From Methylobacter sp. (GTDB taxonomy: Bacteria; Pseudomonadota; Gammaproteobacteria; Methylococcales; Methylomonadaceae): a stretch of 64,000 nt of DNA. This document shows, piece by piece, positions 7,042 to 60,479 of the stretch. Position numbers and translations under genes: made by a program. Under the pieces are notes generated by a model, which saw only the letters and a program-made list of their open reading frames with translations, had not been told where the DNA came from and made no database searches. The stretch lies in contig JAPLRU010000094.1 in assembly GCA_026399025.1 (NCBI GenBank), positions 1-64,000 of the forward strand. Direction: 5' to 3'. How positions within the stretch are numbered: the stretch's first letter is position 1; each line of letters starts with the position of its first letter.

Positions 7042-7210
7042 TATTCACCACGAAGGACACGAAGTTTTATTCGTTGCTATTCAGTCCCCCTCTTTGAAAA
7101 AGAGGGGTTAGGGGAGATTTTTTAAATAAATCCCCCTCAATCCCCCTTTTTCAAAGGGGGAGGTGAATAATTACTTTTATTCTTCGTGTCCTTCGTGCCT
7201 TCGTGGTGAA
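7042..7210. repeat. Cacgaagg-type inverted repeat holding a 99-bp repeat
   Basis: The arms TTCACCACGAAGGACACGAA and CTTCGTGTCCTTCGTG-CCTTCGTGGTGAA face each other. Between them lies a 99-bp block (7076-7174) that differs by one base from 49415-49513: a palindromic CCCCCTCTTTGAAAAAGAGGGG unit and its partner. Together with 6873-7020 this fills the 379-bp spacer between the DUF3455 gene and panE, which converge. Confidence 0.75.
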
Positions 7211-49414: not shown

Positions 49415-49513
49415 GCTATTCAGTCCCCCTCTTTGAAAAAGAGGGGTTAGGGGAGATTTTTTAAATAAATCCCCCTCAATCCCCCTTCTTCAAAGGGGGA
49501 GGTGAATAATTAC
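49415..49513. repeat. 99-bp palindromic repeat (family C), copy 2
   Basis: It is identical to 7076-7174 except for one base, 42 kb apart and in the same orientation. It lies between the two histidine kinase genes in a 198-bp spacer. Confidence 0.85.
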
Positions 49514-54787: not shown

Positions 54788-54938
54788 AAGCCCTCTCCAG
54801 CGGGAGAGGGTTGGGTGAGGGGAATCTAAAATAAGAAAAAAAGCTTATTTGAATCCCCTCATCCCAACCTTCTCGGCAATTGCTCCTGCATTGCTCTACT
54901 ACCTGCATCCATGCAGGCATCCCTGAGGGAGAAGGAGT
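54788..54938. repeat. CCCTCTCC / GGAGAGGG palindromic repeat with a 48-bp element
   Basis: A CCCTCTCCAGCGGGAGAGGG hairpin (54791-54810) and outer arms GGGTTGGGTGAGGGGAATC / GAATCCCCTCATCCCAACC form the host repeat. A 48-bp block at 54874-54921 splits its second half. The rest of the 562-bp spacer up to priA is AT-rich and contains the DnaA-box cluster at 55162-55243. Confidence 0.7.
54874..54921. mobile_element. 48-bp nested mini-element, copy 2
   Basis: It has the same length and orientation as 6925-6972, with about six substitutions. Removing it rejoins CCTTCTC to CCTGAGGGAGAAGG as an unbroken hairpin. Confidence 0.65.
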
Positions 54939-58645: not shown

Positions 58646-59590
58646 ATGACAAGAATGACGGAAGAAGTGCCATTTGCAATGGCCGGAATGCGATTGGATC
58701 AAGTGCTGGCCGAACTGTTTGCGGATTATTCGCGCAGCAAGCTGCAAACCTGGATTAAAGCCGGCCGGGTGCAAGTCAACGGCTTGACGCTTAAGCCCAG
58801 AGACAAACTTGAGGGCGGCGAAGTGATTACGCTGGATGCCGAAGCGGAAGTCGTGGTGACCTCCGAAGCCGAAGCCATTCCTTTGGATATTGTTTTTGAA
58901 GACGAAAGCATCTTGATTGTGAATAAACCGGCCGGTTTGGTCGTGCATCCGGCGGTAGGGAACTGGAACGGCACGCTGTTAAATGCGCTGCTGAATCATG
59001 ACCCCAACCTGGAAACCTTGCCCAGAGCGGGTATTGTGCATCGGCTCGATAAGGAAACCAGCGGACTGTTAATGATTGCAAAAACTTTGCAGGCCCATAA
59101 CAGTCTGACCCAACAGCTGCAGGACAGAAGCATTACCCGTGAATATCTGGCCATCACCCGCGGCCGCATGACCGCCGGGGGCACTGTCGATGAACCTATC
59201 GGCAGGCATCCGACCGAGCGCAAACGTTACGCGGTCAGGGAAAACGGCAAGGCTGCGGTAACTCATTATCGGGTGGGGCAGCGCTTTACCCGCCATACTC
59301 TGGTTCAGGTTAAGCTGGAAACCGGGCGTACTCATCAAATCAGGGTGCATATGGCGCATATCCGTTTTCCGCTATTGGGCGATCAAGTCTACGGCGGACG
59401 CTTCCAAATGCCGCCGGATTGCAGCGAACGGTTGGAAAAAGAATTGCGCAGTTTCAAACGTCAGGCTTTACATGCGGCAAAACTGGGCTTACAGCATCCT
59501 GTTACTGACGAATATCTTGAGTGGGAGCAGCCGATGCCTGACGATATGATCCGCTTGTTGGCAGCGTTGGCGGAAAATGAACGCGATTAA
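58646..59590 (+). CDS. rluD: 23S rRNA pseudouridine(1911/1915/1917) synthase
   Basis: The 314-residue enzyme modifies helix 69 of 23S rRNA. An N-terminal S4 RNA-binding domain (YSRSKLQTWIKAGRVQVNG) is followed by the synthase domain with catalytic Asp in HRLDKETSGLLMIAK and GRTHQIRVHMAH. It is divergent from bamD, as in E. coli, and overlaps pgeF by 14 bp, the usual gene order. Confidence 0.95.
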   Translation: MTRMTEEVPFAMAGMRLDQVLAELFADYSRSKLQTWIKAGRVQVNGLTLKPRDKLEGGEVITLDAEAEVVVTSEAEAIPLDIVFEDESILIVNKPAGLVVHPAVGNWNGTLLNALLNHDPNLETLPRAGIVHRLDKETSGLLMIAKTLQAHNSLTQQLQDRSITREYLAITRGRMTAGGTVDEPIGRHPTERKRYAVRENGKAAVTHYRVGQRFTRHTLVQVKLETGRTHQIRVHMAHIRFPLLGDQVYGGRFQMPPDCSERLEKELRSFKRQALHAAKLGLQHPVTDEYLEWEQPMPDDMIRLLAALAENERD

Positions 59591-60479
59591 AGCTGAGTTG
59601 AGCAGCTTGTCTGCTCAAACGAAACTTATGCCCTCTGGGTATAAACCCTGGCTGGTCCCGGATTGGCCCGCCCCCGCCACTATCCATGCGGCAACCACCT
59701 TACGTAGCGGCGGCGTCAGTTGCGGCGCTTACAGCAGTCTTAATCCGGCCCTGCATGTAGGCGATGACATTAATAACGTTAAGCAAAACCGGCAGCTTAT
59801 TAAGCAATGGCTGGATTTGCCCGGCGACCCGGTTTGGCTGGATCAAGTACACAGCAATCGCGCGGTGCAGGCGATAACAAATGCACCTTTAGCACAAGCC
59901 GACGCCGCCTATACGGCCGAGTCCGGCGTTGTTTGCGCGGTGATGACGGCCGACTGTTTGCCGCTGCTGGTTTGCGCGGCCGACGGCAGTCAAGTGGCCG
60001 CCATTCATGCCGGATGGCGCGGCTTGTTGTCCGGGGTAATCGGCAATACTTTGACTGCAATGAAAATCCCCCCCACCCCCCCTTTTGCAAAGGGGGGGGA
60101 TAGTCGGCTTCGTAATAATGACCTTAGTTCCCCGAATAATATGGGACGGGAAGCTCCCCCCCTTTGTAAAAGGGGGGCTAGGGGGGATTTTCTGGTCTGG
60201 CTGGGCCCTGCCATAGGCCCGGATTGCTTTGAAGTCGGTGCGGAAGTGCGGGACGCTTTTGTGGACAAATCGACAGCATTCGACGCCGCTTTTAAACCGC
60301 AAAGTAACGGCAAGTGGCTGGCGGATATTTATCAATTGGCGCGAATCGACCTGGCTATGGCGGGCATAGCTAAAATTTACGGCGGCGGTTTTTGTACCGT
60401 TACCGAACATGAACGTTTTTATTCCTATCGTCGGGATCAACAAACAGGGCGTATGGCTACGCTAATATGGAGAGCTTAA
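59577..60479 (+). CDS. pgeF: Purine nucleoside phosphorylase-like / polyphenol oxidase family protein with an in-frame repeat insert
   Basis: The 300-residue YfiH/LACC-family protein has LNPALHVGDD, WLDQVHSNRAV, VMTADCLPLLVC, AAIHAGWRGLLSGVI and FCTVTEHERFYSYRRD. PgeF edits peptidoglycan precursors, and relatives act as purine phosphorylases. Family members are about 240-260 residues. Here 43 codons (60063-60191) between VIGNTLTAM and LVWLGPAIGPD are translated from a palindromic repeat. The insert falls in a loop of the fold, so the protein may still work. It starts inside rluD. Confidence 0.92.
   Translation: MNAIKAELSSLSAQTKLMPSGYKPWLVPDWPAPATIHAATTLRSGGVSCGAYSSLNPALHVGDDINNVKQNRQLIKQWLDLPGDPVWLDQVHSNRAVQAITNAPLAQADAAYTAESGVVCAVMTADCLPLLVCAADGSQVAAIHAGWRGLLSGVIGNTLTAMKIPPTPPFAKGGDSRLRNNDLSSPNNMGREAPPLCKRGARGDFLVWLGPAIGPDCFEVGAEVRDAFVDKSTAFDAAFKPQSNGKWLADIYQLARIDLAMAGIAKIYGGGFCTVTEHERFYSYRRDQQTGRMATLIWRA
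60063..60191. repeat. Protein-coding palindromic repeat inside pgeF
   Basis: Terminal arms AAAATCCCCCC and GGGGGGATTTT enclose inner CCCCCCTTTTGCAAAGGGGG and CCCCCCCTTTGTAAAAGGGG hairpins, related to family C (7076 and 49415). The length of 129 bp keeps the pgeF frame open and encodes a Pro/Gly/Lys-rich 43-residue stretch (IPPTPPFAKGG ... PPLCKRGARGDF). Confidence 0.8.

Follow-up and report, generated by a model that had tools for sequence, protein, structure and literature searches.

DUF559 endonuclease-like genes as candidate mobilisers of a triplex-type palindrome translated in frame inside pgeF of Methylobacter

We analyzed a 129-nt segment translated within the pgeF gene of a Methylobacter sp., and the comparisons suggest that it is a non-autonomous mobile palindrome whose mobiliser is probably a DUF559 (Vsr-fold) endonuclease, acting in a RAYT-REP-like manner with an unrelated enzyme; we hold this reading with somewhat more confidence than doubt. 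The broader proposal, that a pan-bacterial class of triplex palindromes owes its mobility to DUF559 Vsr-fold endonucleases, the mobilisers missing so far, and would spread independently of transposases, partly by homing, and enter proteins in frame, is put forward more tentatively, as one on which we are almost evenly divided.

The analyzed stretch, here called the window, comprises 64,000 nt of contig JAPLRU010000094.1, and the following features are needed in the text.

59577..60479, + strand: pgeF (yfiH) open reading frame, 300 aa, interrupted in frame.
60063..60191, + strand: whole insert, an inverted pair of palindromic units plus linker, 129 nt = 43 codons, in frame.
60063..60099, + strand: left unit, AAAATCCCCCC-type arm, short spacer and hairpin CCCCCCCTTTT-GC-AAAGGGGGGGG, translated KIPPTPPFAKGG.
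60100..60155, + strand: variable linker, 56-57 nt, its sequence and length varying by species at the pgeF site.
60156..60191, + strand: right unit, inverted, CCCCCCCTTT-GT-AAAAGGGGGG-CTA-GGGGGGATTTT, translated PPLCKRGARGDF.
7087..7161, strand not given: family-C pair, related units of the same TTT-loop superfamily.
49426..49500, strand not given: second family-C pair, units of the same TTT-loop superfamily.

The reading frame continues through the insert, as the original prediction had it, and the predicted likeness to family C was borne out by the units at 7087-7161 and 49426-49500. The right unit (60156-60191) has three arms in a triplex-type layout. Inverted ends had been described and are present, with arms longer than claimed: they measure 37 nt, are 92% complementary and lie 57 nt apart. 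The folded strand of the insert is far more stable than its shuffles (z -5.8, 0 of 200 equally stable). An Rfam search of the insert gave one match, far under the gathering score, and a known RNA family was rejected on that ground. In the window the hairpin pattern was matched 16 times (partly overlapping) against 0.37 expected, and genome-wide 147 times (each strand, overlaps counted) against once for a reversed control pattern, counts that exclude chance. At 54789-54935 the window also contains another type of paired palindrome, AGCCCTCTCC-AGCG-GGAGAGGGTT with a degenerate partner; this type, found at 128 places in the genome, also flanks the other DUF559 gene of the same genome.

The claim that the insert splits the PgeF fold with both sides intact was confirmed by model matches. 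Pfam PF02578 matched the pgeF product (E 3.8e-71) in two stretches flanking the insert, the NCBIfam YfiH and PgeF models each gave two stretches on both sides of it, and the same was seen in 10 of 11 matches to solved PgeF relatives; the Pfam, NCBIfam and solved-relative matches are all interrupted at about residues 163-203. The insert-bearing peptide lies between KIPPTPPFAK and GDFLVWLGPAIGPD, in a loop spanning only a few residues in the solved relatives, so the essential-looking enzyme that was thought to accept a repeat need not be disturbed by it.

The genome (5.23 Mb, 138 contigs) was then the frame for counting copies. Only the ends of the insert recur there, and a unique 129-nt repeat was rejected; what stands of the predicted repeat is an end unit of about 36 nt, which recurs in pairs or alone, the whole being found once. 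Reading-frame status was worked out for the 22 distinct units that carry no more than one mismatch. Ten of these lie in frame inside conserved proteins (two each in PgeF, BioH, CcmI and the BREX protein PglX, one each in HsdR and HsdS), four are in frame in the ends of open reading frames (two in a DUF559 C-terminal tail, one in a NarG-like C-terminal tail and one in an N-terminal stretch), and the other eight lie outside such frames. Model matches flank the insert on both sides in PgeF, BioH, PglX, HsdR and HsdS, and in CcmI only behind it; BioH is interrupted just before its GWSLG motif. The look through other open frames that the original prediction had suggested was thus productive, with ten in-frame units in six genes, and pgeF is no special case.

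Two arrangements in this genome were also noted. On contig C8 (L045, 456-6925) a type I restriction operon, hsdR-hsdM-DUF559-hsdS, contains six units, with in-frame copies in hsdR, hsdS and the DUF559 C-terminal tail; two of the units are separated by a short tandem repeat. On the minus strand of contig C106 (L003) a BREX-1 PglX methyltransferase gene holds two in-frame units about 90 nt apart.

Selection for coding-compatible repeats, which had been proposed for such copies, was not supported. Survivorship is enough to account for the preserved frames, since four of six frames are open through the consensus half-unit and two of six through the full palindrome, and genes that are kept require in-frame copies. 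A palindromic repeat translated in a conserved gene is, as was recognised beforehand, the behaviour of Rickettsia palindromic elements, which in the available portions of two reviews are likewise 100-150 nt long, with inverted ends and in frame in conserved genes (PMC2229807, PMC10969869). The same portions report in-frame fusions also for ERIC and 107-bp Correia elements, and one review calls the frequency of the Rickettsia elements unusually high (PMC2229807, PMC10969869); the statement that such cases are rarely described outside that group was therefore somewhat strong. The likeness drawn here is one of description, not of sequence, and the present case differs in that its host is a free-living methanotroph and that a candidate mobiliser can be named.

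Occupancy of the site was compared between relatives. The genomes, partly drafts of limited completeness, include pgeF in 60 of 61 cases, and the site was examined at 30 loci, own genome included. Fourteen are empty with an interval of 54 nt, seven, including our own, hold a pair (129-183 nt), and five hold a single palindrome or a remnant (81-87 nt), one of them in another genus (G026); three further loci lack the repeat and have other lengths (33, 69 and 69 nt), and the loop of G024 could not be parsed. A non-repeat loop of equal length in close relatives, named at the outset as the contrary outcome, was found at none of the 30. At the bioH site, six of 23 parsed loci are occupied, all in frame (a pair in three, a single palindrome in two, three units in one), and 17 are empty. 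The species tree was made from PgeF (insert removed), DabB and BioH and has many open forks; on it pgeF occupancy changes nine times among 30 genomes (shuffled labels: mean 9.7, minimum 6), with unparsed G024 and the odd-length G003, G017 and G034 taken as empty, and bioH occupancy changes six times among 20 genomes, G012 being omitted. Insert presence at pgeF and bioH shows little inheritance signal, and the comparison shows that the element comes and goes at one pgeF codon between close species.

Two observations at bioH concern other forms of insertion. In L256 (G017) there are three in-frame units and a duplicated DQLVEIIPP stretch, as if element end and target had been co-copied. The BioH proteins of L261 (G006) and L262 (G014) carry other long in-frame insertions after LLAGNPLF, unlike this palindrome.

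The clearest case of gain was seen between G015 and G019. Their pgeF inserts are identical at 101 of 105 nt (96.2%) without gaps, including 34 of 36 in the linker, whereas the host flanks are 82.1% and 86.0% identical, falling to 78.3% and 81.7% in the nearest 60 nt. G007, which is closest to G015 (gene halves 96.7% and 98.6% identical), is empty at this site, and so is G022. The next-best full-length copy within G019 is 82% identical and in frame in a NuoM-like C-terminal tail. Since the insert is far more alike than its flanks and the sister is empty, the same codon was reached in another lineage without the flanks, and as read from this comparison it is a recent, site-precise gain. It would thus be a homing-like gain, and this one pair (G015/G019 against G007) alone displays it so clearly; most other paired pgeF inserts have diverged about as much as their genes.

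An alternative is that an ancient pgeF insert has descended vertically and disappeared on several occasions through recombination with empty alleles. Its position is common to many congeners and to one other genus (G026), as an old insert would have it; this account nevertheless sits badly with the G015 and G019 inserts being so much more alike than the genes around them, and with the ancestral-looking CAACAGAGC common to the empty G007 and G022, and we regard it as quite unlikely. Retention for PgeF function, as an adaptive domain or through regulation by the hairpin, appears highly improbable to us: the frame is kept in all 12 occupied copies, as function would predict, while occupancy is patchy between close species, length varies (42-144 nt), and unrelated proteins contain peptides like these.

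When filled and empty pgeF loci were set side by side, no target-site duplication was seen and a few target bases were replaced; the empty CAA-CAGAGCAA-TTTACTGG of G007 corresponds to the filled CAA-ATCCCC..GGGGGGA-TTTACTGG of G015, again without duplication. The target-site duplication expected of a miniature element (MITE) of a DDE insertion sequence is thus missing at pgeF. A defined cleavage site was not found among the filled and empty sites.

The preferred reading, of a palindrome moved by a DUF559 enzyme, builds on the gene neighbourhoods. DUF559 was taken as the probable mobiliser because its genes are bracketed by matching palindromes. Our genome has two DUF559 genes with two different palindromes: the first is placed within the type I restriction operon, between two units, and the second between genes that we take to be dabA-like and dabB-like, with AGCCCTCTCC-n4-GGAGAGGGTT on both sides. 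The two proteins match PF04480 with E 3.8e-35 and 4.7e-41, a solved relative is 3hrl, 'Endonuclease-Like Protein' (E 2.2e-19), and E23, D52, E63, D65, H69 and D78 are invariant in 34 aligned rows; judged by sequence, the DUF559 protein has an endonuclease-like fold and is a predicted nuclease. The available part of one report describes a Caulobacter DUF559 protein as a Vsr-like repair endonuclease, and we counted this report against DUF559 as mobiliser (PMC12907096). The protein search for DUF559 also returned 28 plasmid and two phage records. We recognised no published link of DUF559 to repeats, palindromes or mobility in the open-access literature, and one may exist elsewhere.

The association extends over many phyla. 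Around the DUF559 genes of the best 80 of 396 relatives found, 131 pyrimidine-run hairpins lie within 200 nt of the gene (31,449 nt searched) against 47 beyond 400 nt (368,477 nt), a 32.7-fold higher density near the genes, compared with 1.6-fold for other hairpins. In this set of the best 80, 64 loci have at least one such hairpin within 200 nt, 35 have it on both sides, and 16 have none within that distance. A loose pattern, applied without a control, placed a third purine arm on one side of 135 of the 173 hairpins flanking DUF559 genes. Among Methylococcales, 24 of 26 DUF559 loci have a hairpin, 18 of them on both sides, at 19-fold density; the 26 leave out L115-L118, which are weak or partial PF04480 matches without such a hairpin. 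The background was eight hairpins in 135.7 kb, including some occupied pgeF and bioH sites. Ten further DUF559 places comprised seven new ones, two that repeat L131 and L132 and one that repeats L116; of the seven new places, all in Methylococcales, four have a hairpin within 200 nt; the three that lack it include a weak partial match. We also looked at a gene of our own genome that is presumably vsr-like and stands beside a presumably cytosine-methylase-like gene, and found no such palindrome in its 4-kb stretch. In Rodentibacter heidelbergensis (L163) about twelve hairpin units, mostly some 95 nt apart, follow the 3' end of the DUF559 gene, an array that resembles tandem amplification.

Inverted pairs of palindromes are REP-like, and Y1 matches occur in 57 of 61 genomes, ours included, so that an IS200/IS605-type (Y1/RAYT) transposase might move these palindromes as ordinary REPs or BIMEs. 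This would leave several observations unaccounted for. None of eight Y1-transposase loci examined, out of many Y1 matches, is flanked by these hairpins, although some carry other palindromes, and on those eight loci Y1 was rejected as the mobiliser. Read by eye, the unit flanks have no conserved GTAG/GGAG head of the RAYT-REP kind, and Y1 genes are also found in G002, G004, G007, G009, G018 and G022, which are free of TTT-type hairpins. We consider such a transposase improbable.

The reading of DUF559 as mobiliser was further supported by covariation. With looser arm length, a usable palindrome was found at 95 of 106 DUF559 loci. On a DUF559 tree of these 95 rows, made quickly from 115 columns and with many open forks, the palindrome class (T-rich or C-rich beside the loop) changes five times, compared with a mean of 28.1 and a minimum of 23 in 300 shuffles. 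Finer classes gave 13 changes against a shuffled mean of 34.6 and minimum of 29, and within the 29 Methylococcales loci five against 16.9 and 12. G000, G023, G036 and G039 each have several DUF559 genes whose palindromes differ by type, which shows that host composition alone is insufficient. In the counter-case of G051, L105 and L122 are apart on the DUF559 tree and yet have one palindrome type in common, so host or neighbour effects do exist. On this tree, palindrome sequence appears largely to follow DUF559.

The junction between the dabA-like and dabB-like genes was compared in 30 relatives, and there the DUF559 gene behaves as part of a cassette. G000, G012 and G003 each carry a DUF559 cassette, about 500 nt in size and complete with both palindromes, and G010 has a solo palindrome without the gene; the remaining junctions, which lack the gene, measure 5-36 nt in 19 of 30, 60-71 nt in four and 222-289 nt in three. 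As a side observation, in L211, L214 and L224 the left palindrome of the cassette is translated as a DabA-like C-terminal tail (e.g. DKPSPEGEGWVRGK). Elsewhere, the DUF559 pairs L027/L103 (74% identical) and L104/L119 (82%) have no similarity in their flanks, and many of the closest DUF559 pairs do have their neighbourhood in common. Compared in this way, the single, paired and gene-carrying versions are shown to have one layout in common, palindrome-cargo-palindrome.

Copy number was examined in 61 genomes. The seven with a TTT-type DUF559 gene hold 7-47 TTT-type palindromes and the others a median of 0 with a maximum of 35 (p 1.9e-5), and type-2 palindromes are likewise more numerous where a type-2 DUF559 gene was found (p 5.8e-4). 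The cross-type comparisons were also significant (p 1.4e-3 and 4.1e-3), and the association of copy number with DUF559 type is only partly type-specific. Palindrome-rich genomes in which no matching DUF559 gene was detected are G021 and G012, with 35 and 30 TTT-type copies, and G006, with 86 type-2 copies. In the wider set, the dispersed TTT-type pattern exceeded its reversed control in 16 of 22 genomes drawn from the best 80 DUF559 relatives, most strongly in a Geomonas (105 vs 1) and a Chloroflexota genome (75 vs 1). It was not above the control in six (L163, L172, L189, L194, L197 and L200), of which L172 (Nitrospira) and L163 (a CCCTCTTT hairpin) have a TTT-type hairpin at the DUF559 gene despite the missing dispersed excess; L186 has another palindrome type at its DUF559 gene, yet 17 TTT-type copies against 6 in the control.

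Such genomes bear on the possibility that there is no dedicated enzyme, and that palindromes multiply and vanish by slippage, template switching and recombination while DUF559 is a passenger or a repair enzyme. The 86 type-2 palindromes of G006 can be read in this way, as can the pgeF inserts that replace a few target bases without duplication and the bioH target of G008, which has ATCCCC, like an element end. In the part available, a 2015 survey (Holder) ties triplex motifs to genome instability in E. coli and found around these repeats no activity that gives genetic mobility (PMC4666352). What this explanation leaves aside is the palindrome sequence that largely follows the DUF559 tree, the differing palindromes at two DUF559 genes of one genome and the bracketed cassette with its empty sites, and we judge it unlikely while giving it real weight.

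Triplex-motif repeats were earlier named PIT elements. Like our right unit at 60156-60191, the triplex motifs (TM/TMECO) consist of Y-arm, loop, R-arm, a loop of about 3 nt and R-arm. As far as the accessible text of their description goes, they are likewise dispersed, sometimes in inverted pairs, with strain-variable copy number, and our own type-2 palindromes (128 places) resemble its CCCTC-type pattern (PMC4666352). The pgeF copy is of the CCCCCCTTT type with a TTT-loop and differs from the exact TMECO pattern CCCTCNCCC..GGGNGAGGG..GGGNGAGGG. The same text gives 3610 copies of the TMECO-type pattern in 262 proteobacterial genomes and 23 in E. coli MG1655, where they are always intergenic, and large differences in number between strains (PMC4666352). 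Set against those intergenic MG1655 repeats with no mobility gene nearby in the portion seen (PMC4666352), the present palindromes include in-frame copies and have a bracketing nuclease family.

A perfect match to the TMECO pattern lies 168 nt downstream of ycjD, the DUF559 gene of E. coli; the association is one-sided in K-12, and the chance of one of 23 motifs lying within 200 nt of ycjD is about 0.004. Strain HYM1 has a second intact motif, which overlaps the ycjD 3' end. A search for near matches found ycjD in 3365 of 5426 complete E. coli genomes. Motifs were counted in 60 evenly spaced records, of which 37 contain ycjD. These have 12-27 places (median 19, or 18 without ycjD's own) and the 23 that lack it 1-18 (median 4), a difference of p 3.6e-10 (1.1e-9 when ycjD's own place is excluded), with lineage ignored in both. 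The link between ycjD and copy number is suggestive only. Two strains without ycjD have other genes at the locus and not a clean empty site: ST95-32 (L284) and 7784 (L285) carry a TetR-type regulator and efflux genes beside fabI, not the sap operon.

Taken together, these comparisons suggest the following course of events. The insert, two pyrimidine/purine palindromes of intrastrand-triplex type in inverted orientation around a linker, is seated in a tolerant loop of PgeF, and the cargo between such palindromes is a DUF559 gene, a short linker or nothing. We infer that the DUF559 protein recognises its own folded palindrome and cuts or nicks there and at the target. Repair would then insert a copy, in some cases into another species at the matching allelic site, in a homing-like way. 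Possibly the targets resemble the element ends AAATCCCC/GGGGATTT, a guess from the two sites in pgeF and bioH. Copies borne within genes would survive only where the frame is kept, in tolerated loops.

The nearest known parallel is RAYT-REP/BIME, for which the available part of the published study used the same lines of evidence and describes likewise an open reading frame between inverted palindromes, an enzyme and a palindrome that covary, and solo and paired forms, as well as a link of gene presence with copy number, which in the present genomes is only partly type-specific (PMC2817692). With DUF559 in the place of Y1, the gene is here also bracketed by its palindrome and covaries with it, the exceptions being the 16 loci without a hairpin in the best 80 of 396 relatives and G051. 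The DUF559 system differs in that a Vsr-fold endonuclease is unrelated to the Y1 HUH enzymes and in that its loci come from many phyla. Homing endonuclease elements likewise have a nuclease gene in the gene-carrying form and site-precise gain at the same allelic position; they differ in that no self-splicing part was seen here, the pgeF copies lack the gene and the palindromes spread to other sites.

How triplex palindromes spread had been open, and DUF559 is now a candidate, by an association that is close and largely sequence-specific. Mobile palindromes are commonly captured in frame by conserved proteins of a free-living bacterium, and selfish DNA may be the source of some of the loop diversity that such proteins show. 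E. coli lives both with and without ycjD. If the proposal is true, a small nuclease gene and its gene-less derivatives would spread as palindromes, a form of mobile DNA that is independent of transposases.
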